From: Streptomyces sp. Mut1
GTDB lineage: Bacteria > Actinomycetota > Actinomycetes > Streptomycetales > Streptomycetaceae
Reading direction: 5' to 3'
DNA length: 64,000 bases
Assembly: GCF_030719295.1 (NCBI RefSeq)
Contig: NZ_CP120997.1
Span: 2,793,501-2,857,500 of the forward strand
In this document: piece after piece, positions 12,955-49,488 of the stretch
Layout of the letters: each line of letters opens with the position of its first letter
How positions within the stretch are numbered: position 1 is the first letter of the stretch
Program-made: the position numbers and the translations under genes
Notes under the pieces: model-generated
The model's input: only the letters and a program-made list of their open reading frames with translations
Told to the model about the DNA's origin: nothing
The model's database searches: none

Positions 12955-13375
12955 GTCATGCGCTCCCTGCTGGTCATGGTGGTTGATGGTTCTCGTCGGT
13001 GCTCGCGGTCCCCGGATGTCCCTCCGGAGTTTCCGGCCCACTCTAGGTCCTGTACGGAGTACCGCGCCTGTGGCCCCGATCGCGGAGGAAGACGTCCGCG
13101 CGGACGGGAAGGTTGCCGGGCGGGGTCCGGGCGGGGCCGGGAGAACCGGTCATGCGGCACTTTTGGGGCCACAGCAGACCTTTCAAGATCACTTACTGGT
13201 CACCGCCGGGCGTGTTGTCAGTGGCAGGTGCGAGGATGCCTCCAGCACGACTGTGGGTCGGGAGCCCCGCGGTGCGTGACGAACCTGTACCGGACGACGC
13301 GTCCGTGCCGGGTGGGGGGAATCACAGGGCGTTCCCCCTGCCGGGCACCACGCGCAGAAGGGACCGCTGACGGCG
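12955..13375. other. Divergent promoter region between pkaA and the FHA gene
   Basis: Contains the TTGTCAGTG element listed separately at 13215–13237. The pkaA start side carries the AGGGAG ribosome site. No coding region seen. Confidence 0.6.
13215..13237 (+). promoter_or_regulatory. RecA-NDp/PafBC-type promoter candidate for the FHA gene
   Basis: TTGTCAGTG (13215–13223), an 8-nt spacer, and GAGGAT (13232–13237) as -10. The -35 half matches the actinobacterial damage-promoter consensus TTGTCRGTG-N8-TAnnnT exactly. The -10 keeps A at position 2 and T at position 6 but lacks the first T. The predicted leader to the ATG at 13376 is about 130 nt. Confidence 0.5.
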
Positions 13376-16300
13376 ATGCAGATCCGGCTGACCGTCCTCG
13401 CGCCGCCCAGCGGCCAGACCCCGGCGCGCGCCTGCGATGTGCTGGTCACCGCCCCCGCGGGGACGGCCCTGGCCGCCGTCGCGTCCGGCCTGGCGATGGC
13501 CGTCGCCGGTCCCGACGGGTCCCTCGGCAGCGGCGCCGTGGTGCTCTTCGCCGGACGGGAGCGGCTGGACGCCCAGCGGTGCGCCCTCGGTGAACCGCCC
13601 CTGGTGGACGGGGCGGTGCTCTCGCTCCAGGCGCCCGGCGAGGGCGAGACGGCGGACGATCCCGTCCCCGCCCAGCTGCGGGTGATCGCCGGACCGGACG
13701 CGGGCGGGGTCCACCTGCTGCACGGCGGCACGATACGGATCGGCCGCTCGGCCGAGGCCGACGTCCCGCTGGACGACCCCGATGTGTCCCGGCTGCACTG
13801 CGAGGTCACCGTCGCGGACGACGGCCGGGTCACGGTGGCCGACCTGGGCTCCACCAACGGCACCTCGCTGGACGGGGCGGAGGTCCGCGACCGCCCGGTC
13901 CGGCTGAAGCCCGGCGCGCTGCTGCGCCTCGGCGAATCGACGCTCAGGCTCGCGTCGGGCGCGCGTACGCCGACGCTGCGGACGACCCCGGACGGCGAGG
14001 GCCACCTGCGGGTGGCCAAGGCCCCGGCCGAGCCCGTCCCCGACCCCGCGTACGACGGCCCGGACGCCCCCGCCGCCCCCGGCAGCGGCCCCGAGGGCCG
14101 GCCGGCCGGCCACGACCGCCCCGAAGCCGACGACGGGACCGGGGCCCGGCCGGGCTCGGCGGACGGGCACCCCGGCCGCTTCCCGGAGCAGGAGATGCCC
14201 CGGCGCGGCGGCATAGGCGCCTGGGCCCGCCGGTTCAAGGGCGGCAGATCCGAGCCCGTCCCCGCGAGCGCCCCCGAGGCGCCCGCCCCGCCCGCCCCCG
14301 ACGCCACGTTCACCTCGCTGCCCACCGCCCCGGAGTGCACCTGGCCCGATCCGGCGGCCATCCTGCTGACCGCCCTCGGGCCGGGCCCCCGGCTCTGGGA
14401 GCGCGACCCCGCGCACCCGGAGGCGCTGGTGGTCCGGCTGGGCACGACCGACCGGGCCGACCTGCCCGCCGTGCCGGTGACCGTCGGGCTGCGGGAGGCC
14501 GGTTCGCTGGGGCTCGCCGGTCCCCCGGAGCGGCTGTCGGGGCTCGCCAGGTCCGCCGTGGCGCAGCTGGCCGCACTGCACTCCCCCACGGATCTGGAGA
14601 TCGTGCTGATCAGCACGGACCGGTCGCGCACCGTCGAGGAGCGGCGCCGCGAGTGGGCCTGGCTGGGCTGGCTGCCCCATCTGCGGCCGATGCACGGCCA
14701 GGACTGCCGGCTGCTGCTGGCGTACGACCGCGACCAGGCCCTCGCCAGGACGGCCGAGCTGGTGCGGCGGCTGGACGACGGGCCGCTCGGCCCCGGCTGG
14801 GCGAGCCTGGATCCGGCGACGGTCGCCGAGGCGGTCGCGCGGTACGAGGGCCCGTTCACCGTGGTGATCGTGGACGGCGACCCGGGCTCGGCGGTGCTCC
14901 GGGAGAACACGGCACGGCTGGCCGCGGCCGGCGCTGCGGCGGGCATCCATCTGATCTGTCTGGCCCGGACCCCGGCCGCCACGCCCACCTCGCCGGTCGC
15001 CGCGACGTACGAGGCGGCGTGCCACGCGTCGATCGCCTTCCGCGAGTGCGGGGCGGTGGGGATGCTGAGCGGCGACGTGGCGACGGCGCTGCGGCTGCTG
15101 CGCACGGCGGGCGGACGCGCGGCCGGGCACGGCACGGTCGCGGCGGTGGACGCGGTGTCGGCGCACTGGGCGCAGCGGTTCGGCCGGGCGCTGGCCCCGC
15201 TGCGCGCGGAGGGCTCGGCCGCGCTGCCGGGCCGCCAGGCGCCCGTGGCGCTCCCGCCGTCCACGCGCCTCCTCGACGAGCTGGGCCTCGCCCGTGCCAC
15301 CCCGGCGTCCCTGATGGCCCGCTGGGCGTCCACGGCGGACGACCAGCCGGGGGCGACGGTGCGCGGAGCGGGCGACGAGGCCCGTCCGGCGGCGCCGCGG
15401 GTGGGCGCCCAGCGGACGTCTCCGGAGTCCCTGGACTCCCCGGGTTCGGGGCGTTCCCGGTATCCGGGCCCCACCACGGGCGGCTCCGGCCGCACCCCGT
15501 ATCCGAGCGCCGCCGAGCCGGACCCGAGGACCCCGAGGACACGGACGGGCACCGGCACGTCCTCCGGCGCCCCCGTCCCCCGCCCCGCCGTCTACGCCGG
15601 GCGGCCGGTCGTCGTGCTCGGGGCCGGGCCGCGGGGTCCGGTGAGTGTGGATCTCGCCGACGAGGGGCCGCACCTGCTCATCGAGGGCCCCGGCGGCAGC
15701 GGGCGTACGGAACTGCTGCGGGCCGTCGCCGCGTCGCTGGCGGCCGCCGCCCGGCCGGACCGGCTGGGCATCGTGCTGGTCGACGGGGCGGGCGGCGAGC
15801 GCGGCGAGAGCCTGCGCCCCTGCACCGAGCTGCCGCACGCGTTCACGCACCTGGTGGCCTCCGACCCGGTCAGGATGCGGGAGTTCGCGCAGGCGCTGGG
15901 CGGTGAGGTGAAGCGGCGCGCCGAGCTCCTGGGCGGGCTGGACTTCGCCGAGTGGCACAGCCGGCACGAGGCGGGGCGGATGTCCGCGCCCGTTCCGGCA
16001 CAGAAGTCGGCGTCGGCCCAGGAGGCGGACCGGCGCGCGGCCGGCCCGCGCTCCCCCGGCGCGTCCGAGCAGCGGGGCGATATCGAGGCGCCGCTGAGCG
16101 GCACCCTGCGGCTGCGCCCGGCGGCCGGCCGGACCGTGGACCCGGGGCCGTCGCCGCTGCCCCGGCTGGTGGTGCTCGTGGACGACTTCGACGCGCTCAT
16201 AGCCCCGGCGCTCGGCAGCCCGGGGCGGCCCGCCGCCGGTTCGGTCGTGCGGGCGCTGGAGGCGGTGGCCAGGGACGGCGGCCGGCTGGGCATCCACCTG

Positions 16301-16675
16301 GTCGCGACCTCGGCCCGCCCCGACCGTACGGAGGACACCGAGCTGGCCCGCGGGGCGCGGCTGCGCATCGTGCTCGACCCGCCCGCCGTGCCGCCCTCGC
16401 CGGACGAGCCGGCGCCGGGCCGGGGCCGGCTCGGGCATCCGGACGGGCGGGTGACGCCGTTCCAGGGCGGCCGGGTGACGGGCCGCATCCCGCGTACGGC
16501 GACGCTGCGGCCGACGGTCGTCCCGCTGGAGTGGGAGCGGATGGGCGATCCGCCGACCCGCCGCCCGGTCCGGGAGCTGGGCAACGGGCCGACGGACCTG
16601 GCGCTGCTCGCCAGCGCGCTGGAGCGGGCGGCCCGCTCGGTCAACGCGGAACCGCTCACGCCCCTGCACGTCTGA
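13376..16675 (+). CDS. FHA-domain protein with degenerate FtsK/SpoIIIE (EccC-like) modules
   Basis: Large cytoplasmic protein of 1099 residues. An FHA domain (about 110–190; IRIGRSAEADV, VSRLHCEV, DLGSTNGTSLDG) has the Arg, Ser-Arg-x-His and Asn residues needed to bind phosphothreonine. After a disordered linker, residues about 330–600 resemble an FtsK-type domain but have GPPERLSG where a P-loop would be. A second module (about 745–1070) has GPGGSGRTE, with Arg for the usual P-loop Lys, and Walker B-like VVLVDDFDAL. Both modules therefore look impaired for ATP hydrolysis, unlike true EccC. No WXG100 or EccD gene is nearby. It faces the kinase PkaA, a likely source of its phosphorylated ligand (inference). 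The protein may be a signalling scaffold. Start is the ATG at MQIRLTVLAP, with AGAAGGGA upstream. Confidence 0.85.
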   Translation: MQIRLTVLAPPSGQTPARACDVLVTAPAGTALAAVASGLAMAVAGPDGSLGSGAVVLFAGRERLDAQRCALGEPPLVDGAVLSLQAPGEGETADDPVPAQLRVIAGPDAGGVHLLHGGTIRIGRSAEADVPLDDPDVSRLHCEVTVADDGRVTVADLGSTNGTSLDGAEVRDRPVRLKPGALLRLGESTLRLASGARTPTLRTTPDGEGHLRVAKAPAEPVPDPAYDGPDAPAAPGSGPEGRPAGHDRPEADDGTGARPGSADGHPGRFPEQEMPRRGGIGAWARRFKGGRSEPVPASAPEAPAPPAPDATFTSLPTAPECTWPDPAAILLTALGPGPRLWERDPAHPEALVVRLGTTDRADLPAVPVTVGLREAGSLGLAGPPERLSGLARSAVAQLAALHSPTDLEIVLISTDRSRTVEERRREWAWLGWLPHLRPMHGQDCRLLLAYDRDQALARTAELVRRLDDGPLGPGWASLDPATVAEAVARYEGPFTVVIVDGDPGSAVLRENTARLAAAGAAAGIHLICLARTPAATPTSPVAATYEAACHASIAFRECGAVGMLSGDVATALRLLRTAGGRAAGHGTVAAVDAVSAHWAQRFGRALAPLRAEGSAALPGRQAPVALPPSTRLLDELGLARATPASLMARWASTADDQPGATVRGAGDEARPAAPRVGAQRTSPESLDSPGSGRSRYPGPTTGGSGRTPYPSAAEPDPRTPRTRTGTGTSSGAPVPRPAVYAGRPVVVLGAGPRGPVSVDLADEGPHLLIEGPGGSGRTELLRAVAASLAAAARPDRLGIVLVDGAGGERGESLRPCTELPHAFTHLVASDPVRMREFAQALGGEVKRRAELLGGLDFAEWHSRHEAGRMSAPVPAQKSASAQEADRRAAGPRSPGASEQRGDIEAPLSGTLRLRPAAGRTVDPGPSPLPRLVVLVDDFDALIAPALGSPGRPAAGSVVRALEAVARDGGRLGIHLVATSARPDRTEDTELARGARLRIVLDPPAVPPSPDEPAPGRGRLGHPDGRVTPFQGGRVTGRIPRTATLRPTVVPLEWERMGDPPTRRPVRELGNGPTDLALLASALERAARSVNAEPLTPLHV

Positions 16676-39050: not shown

Positions 39051-39734
39051 CTACTCCGCCAGCCGCTCCGCGAGGGCCGTGGCCTCGGCCAGGCTGTCCA
39101 CGACGGGCACACCGGCCTTCTCCAGACCGGCCCGGCTGTGCGAGCCGCCCGTGTAGAGGACCGCCTTGGCCCCGACGTGGGCGGCGGCCACGGCGTCGTC
39201 CACCGCGTCGCCTATGACGACCGTGTGGCGCGGGGATATCCCGCCCAGGGCCGCGAGCTCCGCGAGGTGCCGCTCCATGTACCGCGCCTTGCTGCCGCCG
39301 GACGGTCCGGTGCGCCCGTCGACGCGCACGAAGTGCCGCTCGATGCCGTACCCCCGTACGACGGGGACCAGCTCCTCGTGCTGGTACATGCTCATGATCG
39401 ACTGGCTCCGCCCGGTCAGCTGCCACTGGGCGAGCAGCTCGGCGGCGCCGGCGGTCAGCCCGCAGGCGTCCCGCTGCTCGGTGTAGTGGCGGTGGAAGGC
39501 GCCGTCCATGCGCTCCCACTCGGCGTCGGTGGGAAGGCGGCCCATCAGCCGCTCGTAGAAACGGGGTATCGGGACGCAGTACGTCTCCCGGTACCGCTCC
39601 ACGGTGATCGGGGCCAGGCCGATCTCGCCGAACGCGGCGTTGGTCGCGCCGACGACGGCGGTGTTGTCGTCGAGCAGCGTGCCGTTCCAGTCCCAGACCA
39701 GATGCGTGCGGCGATTTCCCGGCGTAGTACCCAT
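39051..39734 (-). CDS. HAD family hydrolase, phosphoglycolate-phosphatase-like
   Basis: Probable phosphatase of 227 residues. Motif I is VWDWNGTLLDD near the N-terminus: the nucleophile Asp is present, but the usual second Asp (DxD) is Asn. Motif II Ser lies in QSIMSMY, a motif III Lys in GGSKARYM, and motif IV is VVIGDAVDDAVAA. The helical cap lies between motifs I and II. Start is the ATG at 39734: a TTGTCAGTG-N8-TATTTT promoter ends 7 nt before it, so the transcript would begin at the start codon. Upstream in-frame codons lie inside the promoter. In other bacteria Gph-type enzymes remove phosphoglycolate released during DNA end repair, which would suit the promoter type (inference). The substrate is not shown by sequence. 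Confidence 0.87.
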   Translation of the reverse strand: MGTTPGNRRTHLVWDWNGTLLDDNTAVVGATNAAFGEIGLAPITVERYRETYCVPIPRFYERLMGRLPTDAEWERMDGAFHRHYTEQRDACGLTAGAAELLAQWQLTGRSQSIMSMYQHEELVPVVRGYGIERHFVRVDGRTGPSGGSKARYMERHLAELAALGGISPRHTVVIGDAVDDAVAAAHVGAKAVLYTGGSHSRAGLEKAGVPVVDSLAEATALAERLAE

Positions 39735-39741
39735 GCCCAGA

Positions 39742-39764
39742 AAAATACTCGCCCCCACTGACAA
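39742..39764 (-). promoter_or_regulatory. RecA-NDp/PafBC-type promoter of the HAD gene
   Basis: On the minus strand, TTGTCAGTG (39764–39756), 8-nt spacer, TATTTT (39747–39742). Perfect match to TTGTCRGTG-N8-TAnnnT. The ATG lies after 7 further nt, predicting a leaderless mRNA. Confidence 0.75.
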
Positions 39765-44897: not shown

Positions 44898-45488
44898 ATG
44901 GAACCGATCATTCTCACCAGCGGCCGCCTGCGGCTGCGCCCCTTCGCCCCGGACGACGCGGACGCGGTGTACGAGGCCTGTCAGGACCCGGACATCCAGC
45001 GCTGGACGGTGGTCCCCTCGCCGTACGGCCGCCCCGACGCGGAGTTCTTCACCGCGCGGCTCTGTCCGGACGGCTGGCGGGACGGCTCGATGTACAACTT
45101 CGCCGTGGTGCCCCGCACGGGCGGGGCCCTCATAGGCGCCCTCGGCATCAACAGCCGGAGCGGACCGGGCACGTACGAGGTCGGGTTCTGGACCGCGAAG
45201 GAGCACCGGGGCCTCGGCTACATGACCGAGGCGGTCCTGTGCGCCGCCCGCTGGAGCTTCACCTCGCTGGGCTGCGACCGGCTGGAGTGGAAGGCCGAGA
45301 CCGGCAACGTCCCGTCGCGGGCCGTCGCGCTGCGGGCGGGCTTCCGGATGGAGGGCGACCAGCGCTCGGGGCTGCTCAACAAGGGCGTGCGCCGCGATAC
45401 GTGGGTCGGCGCGCTGCTCCCCTCCGACCTCGGCCTGCCCAGCACCCGGGTCTACATCCCGGCGGGCGATGTCAGTGCCGCCCCATAA
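44898..45488 (+). CDS. GNAT family N-acetyltransferase
   Basis: Acetyl-CoA-dependent transferase of 196 residues (RimJ/RimL-like subgroup). Recognisable segments are LRLRPFAPDDADAVYEACQDPDI at the start, YEVGFWTAKEHRGLGYMTEAVL as the acetyl-CoA-binding motif, and NVPSRAVALRAGFRMEG. The substrate is unknown; RimJ-like members modify ribosomal protein N-termini or small molecules. Start is ATG at 44898. It is divergent from secA. Its TAA stop (45486–45488) lies inside the -10 box of the glycosylase promoter downstream. Confidence 0.9.
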   Translation: MEPIILTSGRLRLRPFAPDDADAVYEACQDPDIQRWTVVPSPYGRPDAEFFTARLCPDGWRDGSMYNFAVVPRTGGALIGALGINSRSGPGTYEVGFWTAKEHRGLGYMTEAVLCAARWSFTSLGCDRLEWKAETGNVPSRAVALRAGFRMEGDQRSGLLNKGVRRDTWVGALLPSDLGLPSTRVYIPAGDVSAAP

Positions 45489-45491
45489 AGT
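45469..45491 (+). promoter_or_regulatory. RecA-NDp/PafBC-type promoter of the YcaQ-like gene
   Basis: ATGTCAGTG (45469–45477), 8-nt spacer, TAAAGT (45486–45491). Matches TTGTCRGTG-N8-TAnnnT except the first base. The ATG at 45499 follows after exactly 7 nt, the same geometry as the HAD gene promoter. Confidence 0.7.
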
Positions 45492-45498
45492 GCGGGGC

Positions 45499-46674
45499 AT
45501 GACGTCTGTGCAGCCACCCGCAGTCGAACTCTCCGCCGACCAGGCCCGCAGGATCGCCCTGCGCGCCCAGGGCTTCCTGGGCGCCCCGGACCGCCGATCC
45601 GGGGTGCCCGGAGTGCTGCGCCACCTCGGCGCCGTACAGCTGGACACGATCTCGGTGCTGGCGCGTTCGCACGAACTGATTCCGTACGCGCGCCTGGGCG
45701 CGATCGGCCGGCGCACGGTCGAGGAGGCGTACTGGTCGGGCGGCCGCGCCTTCGAGTACTGGTCGCACGCGGCGTGCATCCTGCCCGTCGAGGAGTGGCC
45801 GCACTTCGCCTTCCGCCGCCGCGCCTACCGCGCGCGCCCGCAGTGGCACCACGACCTGCCCGACGGCGCGTACGACAAGGTCATCAAGCAGCTGACCGCC
45901 GAGGGCCCGCTGACGGCGACGGAACTGGGCGGCGCGAAGAACGGCGGGGAGTGGTGGGACTGGTCGGCGTCGAAGGTCGCCGTCGAGCGCGCCCTGATGT
46001 ACGGCGAGGTGGTGTGCACCGAGCGGCGCGGCTGGAAGCGGATCTACGACCTCGCGGAGCGCGCCCTGCCCGACGCCGTGCTGCACGACGATCTGGACGA
46101 CGCGGAGTGCCTGCGCCGGCTGGTGGCGCTCGCCGGACAGTCGCTGGGCGTGGGCACCCGGACGGACATCGCGGACTACCACCGGCTCAAGGGGGAGCAG
46201 TTCGACGCGGTGGTGGCGGATTCCGGTCTGGTCCCGGTGACCGTGCAGGGCTGGGCGAAGCCGGCCTGGGCGGACCCGGCGGCGCTTGCCGTCGAACCGC
46301 GCGGCCGGCACCGGACGACGCTGCTGTCGCCCTTCGACTCGTTGGTCTGGGAGCGTGCGCGCACCGAGCGGATCTTCGGCTTCACGCACCGCCTTGAGGC
46401 GTACGTGCCCAAGCCGAAGCGGATCCACGGCTACTTCGCGATGCCGCTGCTGGCCGGCGGCAGGCTCCAGGGCCGGGTCGACCCGGCCCGTGACGGCACC
46501 ACGCTGATCGCCCGGCAGGTGTCCCTGGCCGGCAGGAAGGCCGTGGCGCCGATGGCCCAGGCTCTGGTGGAGGCCGCTTCCTGGGTCGGCTGCACGGACG
46601 TCCGGCTGGAGCGGGTGGAGGCGCCGGAGCTGCGCGGTCCGCTCACGGCGGAAATCGCGCGCCTCCTGGCCTGA
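45499..46674 (+). CDS. YcaQ/AlkX-like winged-helix DNA glycosylase (HTH_42 family)
   Basis: Probable DNA repair glycosylase of 391 residues from the family of E. coli YcaQ (AlkX) and the azinomycin-resistance enzyme AlkZ, which unhook interstrand crosslinks and remove bulky alkyl lesions. The sequence shows the family pattern: ADQARRIALRAQGF, then VQLDTISVLARSHELI, where QLD fits the catalytic QxD motif of the YcaQ branch. FEYWSHAACILP, WEWSASK-like WWDWSASKVAVERAL and LLSPFDSLVWERARTERIFGF follow. Start is chosen as ATG at 45499, because a damage-type promoter ends 7 nt before it and an alternative start at 45469 lies within that promoter. The gene thus appears to be expressed separately from the GNAT gene that precedes it by 10 nt. 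Confidence 0.88.
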   Translation: MTSVQPPAVELSADQARRIALRAQGFLGAPDRRSGVPGVLRHLGAVQLDTISVLARSHELIPYARLGAIGRRTVEEAYWSGGRAFEYWSHAACILPVEEWPHFAFRRRAYRARPQWHHDLPDGAYDKVIKQLTAEGPLTATELGGAKNGGEWWDWSASKVAVERALMYGEVVCTERRGWKRIYDLAERALPDAVLHDDLDDAECLRRLVALAGQSLGVGTRTDIADYHRLKGEQFDAVVADSGLVPVTVQGWAKPAWADPAALAVEPRGRHRTTLLSPFDSLVWERARTERIFGFTHRLEAYVPKPKRIHGYFAMPLLAGGRLQGRVDPARDGTTLIARQVSLAGRKAVAPMAQALVEAASWVGCTDVRLERVEAPELRGPLTAEIARLLA

Positions 46675-46716: not shown

Positions 46717-47472
46717 TCACCTGATTTCGAGGATCTTCTCCCGCATGGCATAGACCACTGCTTCCATGCGGGAGTGCAGCTGGAGCTTCTCCAGAATGTT
46801 GCGGACGTGGTTCTTCACGGTGTTCTCGGAAATGAACAGTTCCTTCGCGATATCGCGATTGTTCATGCCGGTGGCAACCAGTTTGAGGACTTCGAGTTCG
46901 CGCTCGGTGAGCCGGGGCGCCGGTACCAGCCGGCGTTCATCGGTCCGCTGGATCATCGATTTGAACTCGGTGAGCAGTTTGGACGCCATGGACGGGCTGA
47001 TCTGTGACTGCCCGTCGGCGACCGCGCGAATCGCGGTGGACACCTCGTCCGTGGAAATCTCCTTGAGGAGATATCCCGTGGCACCGGCCTTGATGGCGTC
47101 GTAGAGGTCGGCCTCCTCGTCGCTGATCGTCAGCATGATGATCTTCGCACTGGGGGCCACCTCCTTGATCGAGGTGCAGGCCTCGATGCCGCCCCGCCTG
47201 GGCATCCGCACATCCATCAGCACGATGTCCGGGAGCAGGTCGGCCGCCTTGTCGACCGCCTCCGCCCCGTCCCCCGCCTCGCCGACGACCTCGATGTCCT
47301 CCTCGTGCGCGAGGACGATTTCCAGGCCTCTGCGGAAAAGGGCGTGGTCATCGACGACCAGGACCCTGATCGGCTCCTTGCGGTAGCCGTTGTCCCGGTC
47401 GTCACCGGCCGGGACGGCCGCCGTTTCGCCGGCGCCCCTCGCATCGCGCACGGGCCCGAAGGTGTCCGCCAT
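46717..47472 (-). CDS. Orphan NarL/LuxR-type response regulator
   Basis: Two-domain regulator of 251 residues. The receiver (about 35–155) contains DDHALFRRG, phospho-acceptor Asp in [10 protein letters not shown], Thr in MLTISD and Lys in YLLKEIS. The C-terminal LuxR helix-turn-helix (about 180–245) reads [36 protein letters not shown]. No sensor kinase gene lies next to it, so it is an orphan here. Start is the ATG at 47472 with a strong GGGGGAGGAA site. It sits between the glycosylase (convergent) and hpf (same strand, with a terminator between). Confidence 0.95.
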
Positions 47473-47607
47473 CGTTCCTCCCCCTGAAGGCCACGGCCTG
47501 AAGTTCACGAACTGTCCGCCAACGGCAGTTCACAGAGCACCGATTGGCTTGGGCCGCCATGATTTCATGCCGTGGCGCTCAGCGCGGTGATCCCTCGGTG
47601 GCACACA

Positions 47608-48684: not shown

Positions 48685-49431
48685 TCAGTTCCGGTTTATT
48701 TCGCGGGCGGCGGGACATGCTGCGTCGAAGGCCGCGGGGGACGCCGCGACGACGGCAGCGTCGCGCACCGCCGCACCGCTGCCCGCACGCCCCTGGGCGC
48801 AGGTGAGCGCGCGTGCCGCCTCGGCCAGCGTGGCCCCCGTTGTCAGCAGGTCGTCCACCAGCACCACCCGCCCGTTGGCGAGCAGCCGGCCGCCTCCCGT
48901 CACCACGCTCAGCGCGTCCGCCAGATTCGCCCGGCGCTCCGGCGCGGTGAGACCGGCCTGGTCCGCCACCGCCCGCCGCAGGCGCAGCACCGCGGCCACC
49001 GTCGCCGGCGTACCCGTCCGCCTCAGGTGCGCGGCGGCCGCCCACGCGATCCGCCGCCCCGGGTCGTGCCCGCGCGCCGCCACCGCCCGCCGCGTGGACG
49101 GCACGGGGACGAGCAGCAGCGGCCGCCCGTCCGGTACCTGCCCCGCCCCGGCCCTCACGGCCACCGCCAGGGCCCTGCCGAGCGGCCGTGCCAGGGCGAG
49201 CACGCCCCGCTCCTTGTGGGCCAGCAGCGCCGCCCGTACCGCGTTCTCGTATCCGGCGGCGGCATGGACCACGGGCAGGCCGGGCGGCTCGGGGGCGGGC
49301 CGCACCCGGCGTGGCGCCCCGCCGTGCAGCTGTGCGCCGCAGGTCTCGCACAGCTCCGTACGCGCTCTGCCGCAGCCGCCACAGGACACCGGCAGAACGA
49401 GTCCGGTGATCTCCCGCCACCACCCGCGCAT
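48685..49431 (-). CDS. ComF family phosphoribosyltransferase-like protein
   Basis: Protein of 248 residues related to ComFC of naturally competent bacteria. It has an N-terminal zinc-binding part with CGGC and CETC (about 17–35) and a type I phosphoribosyltransferase fold. The PRPP loop is VVLVDDLLTTGATL (about 190). The family LVPVPSTRRAVAARGHDP segment is present. In organisms without transformation, such as Streptomyces, its role is not established. Start is taken as ATG at 49431 (MRGWWREITGL); an in-frame start further up at 49479 would lie near the lpqB end. It follows lpqB by 57 nt and is likely part of the mtrA–mtrB–lpqB operon. Confidence 0.9.
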   Translation of the reverse strand: MRGWWREITGLVLPVSCGGCGRARTELCETCGAQLHGGAPRRVRPAPEPPGLPVVHAAAGYENAVRAALLAHKERGVLALARPLGRALAVAVRAGAGQVPDGRPLLLVPVPSTRRAVAARGHDPGRRIAWAAAAHLRRTGTPATVAAVLRLRRAVADQAGLTAPERRANLADALSVVTGGGRLLANGRVVLVDDLLTTGATLAEAARALTCAQGRAGSGAAVRDAAVVAASPAAFDAACPAAREINRN

Positions 49432-49488
49432 GACTCCACTGTGCGCGCATCGGGGCGACCGGGCCACCCCTGTGGACAACCGCCGGTC

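Follow-up and report, generated by a model that had tools for sequence, protein, structure and literature searches.

The conservation of its boxes and spacing makes it very probable that the site at 45469-45491 is a genuine promoter of the RecA-NDp (PafBC-type) class and that the ATG downstream of it begins a leaderless mRNA. The window is the whole stretch of DNA that was analysed, 64 kb in length. Our best explanation, which we regard as quite likely, is that this promoter serves the gene of a YcaQ-like crosslink glycosylase alone, and that DNA damage, PafBC and a leaderless mRNA would be the successive steps of its expression. It would serve this gene alone because the next gene (46717-47508) runs opposite to it, on the other strand. 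The features are as follows.

44898..45488, + strand, GNAT acetyltransferase gene upstream, whose end carries the promoter (PF13302, E=5.8e-31; stop 45486-45488)
45469..45477, + strand, -35-side box ATGTCAGTG of the putative RecA-NDp (PafBC-type) promoter (direct reading and motif scans)
45470-45475, + strand, core TGTCAG of the -35-side box
45478..45485, + strand, 8-nt spacer CCGCCCCA (direct reading)
45486..45491, + strand, -10 box TAAAGT (T, A and the final T invariant in 80/80 relatives)
45492-45498, + strand, GCGGGGC between the -10 box and the start codon
45498..45499, + strand, predicted leaderless transcription start (from the 7-nt gap here and 6-8 nt in 80/80 relatives)
45499-45501, + strand, ATG of the glycosylase gene
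45499..46674, + strand, YcaQ-like (YQL/AlkX) interstrand-crosslink DNA glycosylase gene, 391 aa (PF06224, E=2.1e-64)
45524..45539, + strand, possible LexA box with 1 mismatch in the early codons of the glycosylase gene; disfavoured

The probable promoter site and the glycosylase gene

The window was read again at the positions given in the preliminary description, and the motif ATGTCAGTG-N8-TAAAGT was located at 45469-45491 as described. Its single mismatch to TTGTCRGTG-N8-TAnnnT is the first base, A for T, and 7 nt, filled by GCGGGGC, separate the end of the -10 box from the ATG at 45499, both as earlier claimed. The promoter had also been placed inside the end of the GNAT gene and over its stop; indeed, the GNAT ORF ends at 45488 and its TAA is made of the first three bases of the -10 box. 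The M. tuberculosis PafBC motif is given as TGTC(G/A)G-N10-TA-N3-T, and its direction matters (PMC8151990). The boxes are equal to this motif, which bears out the claimed fit to a PafBC-type consensus.

The product had been assigned to the YcaQ/AlkX-type family, and this assignment was sustained by PF06224 (E=2.1e-64; nearly full length, profile positions 1-327 of 329), by PDB 9zd6 (E=2.1e-53) and by the catalytic motif QLD in the context AVQLDT. SCO3007 is presumably the orthologue of the gene in S. coelicolor, and a literature search for SCO3007 found no paper. Q-aliphatic-D is described as the catalytic motif rule of the YcaQ-like subfamily (PMC9040887), and 9ZD6 is named once in PMC13303869. 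By analogy with its family, the glycosylase would unhook N7-guanine crosslinks. Among the neighbours, 46717-47508 looks response-regulator-like and the ORF 48685-49479 ComF-like, both recognised by eye from the ORF list. Two PF06224 paralogues (L081 and L083) were found above the cut-off in the same genome. The motif was considered as a mark of every PF06224 gene and this was rejected, as the two paralogues have no site within 2 mismatches.

The pattern TTGTCRGTG-N8-TANNNT with up to one mismatch gave 3 sites in the 64-kb window against a shuffle mean of 0.07, and exact TGTCRGTG-N8-TANNNT gave 2 against 0.01 expected from shuffles. At 39742-39764 (-) lies a second site, an exact one with the sequence TTGTCAGTG-N8-TATTTT; a HAD-type hydrolase gene (ORF 39054-39734, -) has its ATG 7 nt further on, and the leaderless layout recurs here. 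The one-mismatch site TTGTCAGTG-N8-GAGGAT at 13215-13237 (+) has no start codon just downstream, and the next plausible gene after it is the ORF 13376-16675.

Conservation among relatives and the start codon

As relatives we used the 80 best among 555 confirmed loci; their titles name Streptomyces, or Kitasatospora in two cases. A check of the boxes in such relatives had been proposed earlier, and TGTC[AG]G-N10-TAnnnT proved to be kept at 80/80 loci, with the full TGTCRGTG present in 67/80. The spacer was exactly 8 nt in 80/80 in a search that permitted 7-9 nt. After removal of similar flanks, a non-redundant set of 57 loci was obtained, in which the core columns reached 0.98-1.00 consensus versus a mean of 0.47 for columns -40 to -2. 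In further genomes of the genus (L173-L187), the same boxes were kept at the glycosylase gene in 15/15.

These data bear directly on another explanation, in which chance or coding constraint at the end of the GNAT gene would have produced the motif, with the glycosylase gene read from an upstream promoter. The overlap of the motif with the GNAT stop codon in the window is in its favour. However, an ORF of 150 or more codons has its stop inside the motif in only 15/80 relatives, whereas the boxes are present in 80/80 and the flank consensus is 0.47; the shuffle expectation of 0.01-0.07 per window also argues against it. Because a long ORF ends inside the motif in so few relatives, the GNAT gene end does not explain the motif, and on this comparison the promoter overlaps the GNAT stop only incidentally. 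The conservation of the boxes across the 80 relatives led us to reject chance and coding constraint, and we find this explanation hardly credible. With the RecA-NDp promoter retained as the preferred reading, read-through from upstream into the glycosylase gene may be added to it.

An ATG follows the -10 box in 80/80 relatives, at 6 nt in 7 loci, 7 nt in 61 and 8 nt in 12. A Shine-Dalgarno search from -16 to -4 in the 80 relatives found no locus above 3/5 matches to GGAGG. The predicted leaderless layout is thus upheld by a gap of 6-8 nt at every locus and by the lack of any locus that matches GGAGG at 4 or 5 positions. The motif itself begins with an in-frame ATG (45469), from which an ORF of 401 aa extends. 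This alternative start was disfavoured since only 14/80 relatives have an in-frame ATG in the 60 nt upstream, though 60/80 have some in-frame ATG, GTG or TTG in that interval; in 7/80 an in-frame stop occurs in the 30 nt upstream. Because upstream in-frame start codons are so frequent (60/80), it is chiefly the conserved spacing that supports the start at 45499.

The layout was also searched at divergent AlkZ-like loci from other families, using a site matrix trained on the 40 other sites of this genome. The matrix was run on 53/54 of these loci (L218 had no tblastn anchor). The best site stood 6-9 nt before an open in-frame start at 31/53 loci, versus a mean of 3.0 (sd 3.0, max 25) for 500 permuted matrices on the same loci. 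In 20 of the 31, the real score was reached by at most 5/100 shuffles. The same matrix search gave 22/53 loci without the layout; this, like the permuted-matrix maximum of 25, counts against the preferred reading. Two of the 22 (L190 and L191) have a strong site and a glycosylase start 53 nt further on. By eye, an ATG 6 nt after the NDp site of these two loci opens a short ORF that ends across the GTG start of the glycosylase gene, an arrangement resembling a leaderless small ORF coupled to the glycosylase.

The promoter class and its predicted leaderless layout

The host genome has 7,990,879 bases in 4 contigs. Scanning it with TTGTCRGTG-N8-TANNNT and up to one mismatch gave 88 sites (24 exact), against 8 for the reversed-pattern control. 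With NTGTCRGTG-N8-TANNNT, 41 sites were obtained, namely the 24 exact ones and 17 differing at the first base, the glycosylase site included. The genes downstream of 31 sites were examined, consisting of 30 that were Pfam-scanned from 40 fetched sites (10 sites unscanned) and the glycosylase gene. Repair, recombination or replication families were found in 14/31 of the proteins: UDG, MgsA-type, RuvC, RecD2-type, UvrB, the sliding clamp, two UvrD-type helicases, RecA, a Helicase_C_2 helicase, a PD-(D/E)XK nuclease, HhH-GPD, an Exo_endo_phos protein and the YcaQ-like glycosylase. In our reading, the Helicase_C_2 helicase is DinG-type and the Exo_endo_phos protein is ExoIII-like. The other 17 include a transporter, a HAD hydrolase, PhoH, a TnpB-like protein and unknowns. 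The exact site of the TnpB/OrfB-like gene (L103, own genome, C1 near 5223947) stands 7 nt before its ATG, which suggests damage-linked control of a mobile-element gene.

Outside the 41-site set there are 47 one-mismatch sites, of which 40 were fetched and 7 left out; 12 proteins were located and 10 scanned. Some of these sites, with the mismatch elsewhere than at the first base, stand upstream of genes for an IMS polymerase, a 5'-3' exonuclease, ExoVII, a DnaX-type protein and two DEAD helicases. A group among them (within L125-L164) keeps TTGTCAGTG and has CAnnnT instead of TAnnnT, and several of the CAnnnT sites stand 6-8 nt before a start codon, such as those of the IMS polymerase (L128), the 5'-3' exonuclease (L134) and a DEAD helicase (L159). 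Because several of these sites keep the start-codon spacing, the -10 box may tolerate C at its first base.

In the class sample, TGTCAGTG-N8-TANNNT occurs at 13-58 sites per genome in 16/16 Streptomyces, with 0 or 1 for the reversed control. Summed over the 16 genomes, this makes 560 sites versus 2. Two genomes of family f19 in the class sample (G154 and G174) carry 118 and 198 TGTCRGTG-N8-TANNNT sites, with a start codon at 6-9 nt for a minority of them only. The spacer TGTCAGTGCCCGCCCGTAGGGT is identical at many of these sites, as if a repeated element carries the motif.

The leaderless layout was then counted across the class. In this genome, ATG or GTG stands 6-9 nt after the -10 box at 29/41 sites, none counted twice, against a background of 9.6% per four offsets at 10-59 nt of the same 41 sites. 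When an ORF of at least 60 codons was required, 26/41 sites had their start at 5-9 nt versus 0-7 per other 5-nt bin, and 25/41 also passed the GC3 filter. Among 3382 sites of 101 Streptomyces genomes, ATG stands at 6-9 nt after 1424 (42%) and at 20-23 nt after 104 (3%). GTG stands at 6-9 nt after 556 of them (16%), a slight overcount, as are the ATG/GTG genome counts, because, with a variable gap, a site that has two fitting start codons can be counted twice (one case seen). In the class sample, 473/775 Streptomyces sites (61%) and 1095/2082 non-Streptomyces sites (53%) are followed by ATG or GTG at 6-9 nt, the background figure for these counts being that of this genome's own sites. The latter sites come from 181 genomes, and the count is 1044/1703 (61%) after removal of the three with more than 60 sites. 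All these counts are to be read with sites in related genomes as non-independent and with a start codon at 6-9 nt as something different from a mapped 5' end. The pattern looks like leaderlessness is a property of the promoter class and is not special to the glycosylase gene, whose site is, by its sequence layout, typical of its class. We propose that the glycosylase gene would be one member of a broad regulon, with the leaderless layout as its commonest arrangement.

At the recA gene of this genome (L105), an in-frame GTG stands 7 nt after the NDp site; the ATG that fits the usual recA start lies 36 nt further downstream, at +43. The gene may therefore have a leaderless, N-terminally longer form. 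A further proposal, which we put forward tentatively and regard as somewhat doubtful, is that the PafBC promoter of actinomycetes would have leaderlessness built in. The spacing from the -10 box to the start would be selected class-wide, so that a large part of the damage response that is independent of LexA, including the unhooking of crosslinks, would use leader-independent translation. If this is true, such a route would sustain the supply of repair proteins while canonical initiation is impaired. Against a general rule of this kind, as against the preferred reading, stands at least one NDp promoter, Rv1955 P1 of M. tuberculosis, whose message is reported to have a leader (PMC2897130).

Regulation and comparison with known systems

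The pafB and pafC genes are adjacent ORFs in this genome and match the solved PafBC chains PDB 7p5x, 9fnd and 6sj9. PafB is encoded in 187/197 class genomes; therefore its presence is weak evidence, and it is too uniform for a correlation with the motif. In the proposed mechanism, DNA damage would yield ssDNA that activates PafBC, and PafBC would let the housekeeping holoenzyme use the TGTCAG-N10-TAnnnT promoter. Both steps are reported for mycobacteria, where sigma adaptation by PafBC and triggering by ssDNA have been described (PMC11804915), and would be transferred here. Transcription would then start at or next to the ATG at 45499, as the conserved spacing suggests, and the leaderless mRNA would be translated without a Shine-Dalgarno leader. 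More glycosylase would finally unhook N7-guanine crosslinks, if the protein acts as its family does.

The promoter class could be genuine and yet be read in Streptomyces by another factor, such as ClgR or a dedicated sigma factor. ClgR has been proposed for the mycobacterial P1 motif (PMC5656591), and when the Streptomyces motif was first compiled, it was taken for a possible sigma-factor site (PMC2375139). However, boxes identical to the PafBC motif (PMC8151990) and neighbouring genes for PafB and PafC make another reader seem rather improbable to us.

Dual control is also to be weighed. Here the leaderless promoter would be real, and PafBC-type activation would be combined with a LexA operator at 45524-45539, so that the gene would not be LexA-independent. 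Using the LexA consensus tCGAAC-N4-GNNCGa (PMC9380542), the match at 45524-45539 has 1 mismatch and is as good as the best LexA match upstream of recA in this genome. The mean mismatch at this position was 2.03 versus 2.99 (sd 0.11) when codons were redrawn at background usage (75 of the 80 loci; 5 had no anchor), and the Glu codon GAA, which favours the box, is used in 65/69 loci versus 9% background. A 1-mismatch LexA match also lies within 250 nt upstream in 6/80 relatives, and several mycobacterial genes are reported to carry both elements (PMC8223512). On the other hand, equally good matches are common, with 19 in the 64-kb window versus 7.8 expected, or about one per 3.4 kb. The Ser codon TCC in 68/74 loci opposes the box, as it breaks a conserved G that TCG would give. 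The codon bias also spans codons 2-18 (45502-45550), beyond the box, and the orthologues show there an unusual synonymous choice with the rare TCT, CCT and GCA. Dual control is, in our estimate, of low probability. LexA control of the glycosylase gene is unlikely as far as its sequence tells, and the LexA independence of the preferred PafBC-type promoter stands as a prediction.

The bias of the early codons may come from an element in the RNA or the DNA, or from low structure at a leaderless 5' end. Avoidance of G in early codons was not borne out as a mark of all leaderless regulon genes, since third-position G (codons 11-20) was 0.20 in the glycosylase orthologues versus 0.39 in 23 other leaderless-type genes.

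The motif of S. rimosus recA was extended computationally to 67 S. coelicolor genes (PMC2375139), among which the glycosylase gene may be. SCO6735 is reported to be NDp-controlled and UV-inducible in S. coelicolor (PMC5087735). A 2022 study, after an initial search, reported no conservation of the M. smegmatis PafBC motif in S. venezuelae, which counts against the preferred reading; whether Streptomyces has a LexA-independent damage response run by PafBC was left open there (PMC9380542). The pathway of the Streptomyces YQL glycosylases is described as unknown in PMC9040887. The present site links these two questions. With one clean promoter and 41 close sites listed for a single genome, an unproven damage-response pathway becomes directly testable. 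Most sites of the class lie where a leaderless message would begin, in and beyond Streptomyces, which would provide a functional grouping for leaderless genes; the class-wide layout is also a reason for re-checking the annotated start codons of repair genes. A search of open-access literature gave no report tying the NDp motif to YcaQ-like genes or to leaderless mRNAs. What is new here, at the level of sequence, is the conservation of the boxes in 80/80 relatives and the class-wide leaderless layout; the prediction of the motif in Streptomyces is older.

The gene resembles the other YQL/AlkX glycosylases (HTH_42/PF06224) in PF06224, in QLD, in being the one copy of its type in the genome and, apparently, in adjoining secA and a response-regulator-like gene, a neighbourhood reported as invariant in Streptomyces (PMC9040887). 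For this gene an NDp-type promoter is predicted, in contrast to E. coli ycaQ, suggested to be constitutive, and A. baumannii alkX, induced by mechlorethamine (both PMC13303869).

As with other leaderless mRNAs of Streptomyces, the 5' end should lie no more than a few nt from the start codon. In S. coelicolor, leaderless messages are about 21% of primary starts, and membrane and regulatory genes were noted among them (PMC4895711); an ontology analysis of 264 leaderless mRNAs reported no linked group (PMC4681348). In contrast, leaderlessness here would track one promoter class with linked function.

The site shares with the known RecA-NDp promoters of mycobacteria, of S. rimosus recA and of SCO6735 the motif TGTC(A/G)G-N10-TAnnnT with fixed spacing and direction, and with those of the PafBC regulon the downstream genes rich in DNA repair and the presence of the PafBC genes. 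It differs from them in its first base, A and not T, in its position 7 nt from the start codon and inside the end of another gene, and in its predicted target, a YcaQ-like glycosylase.
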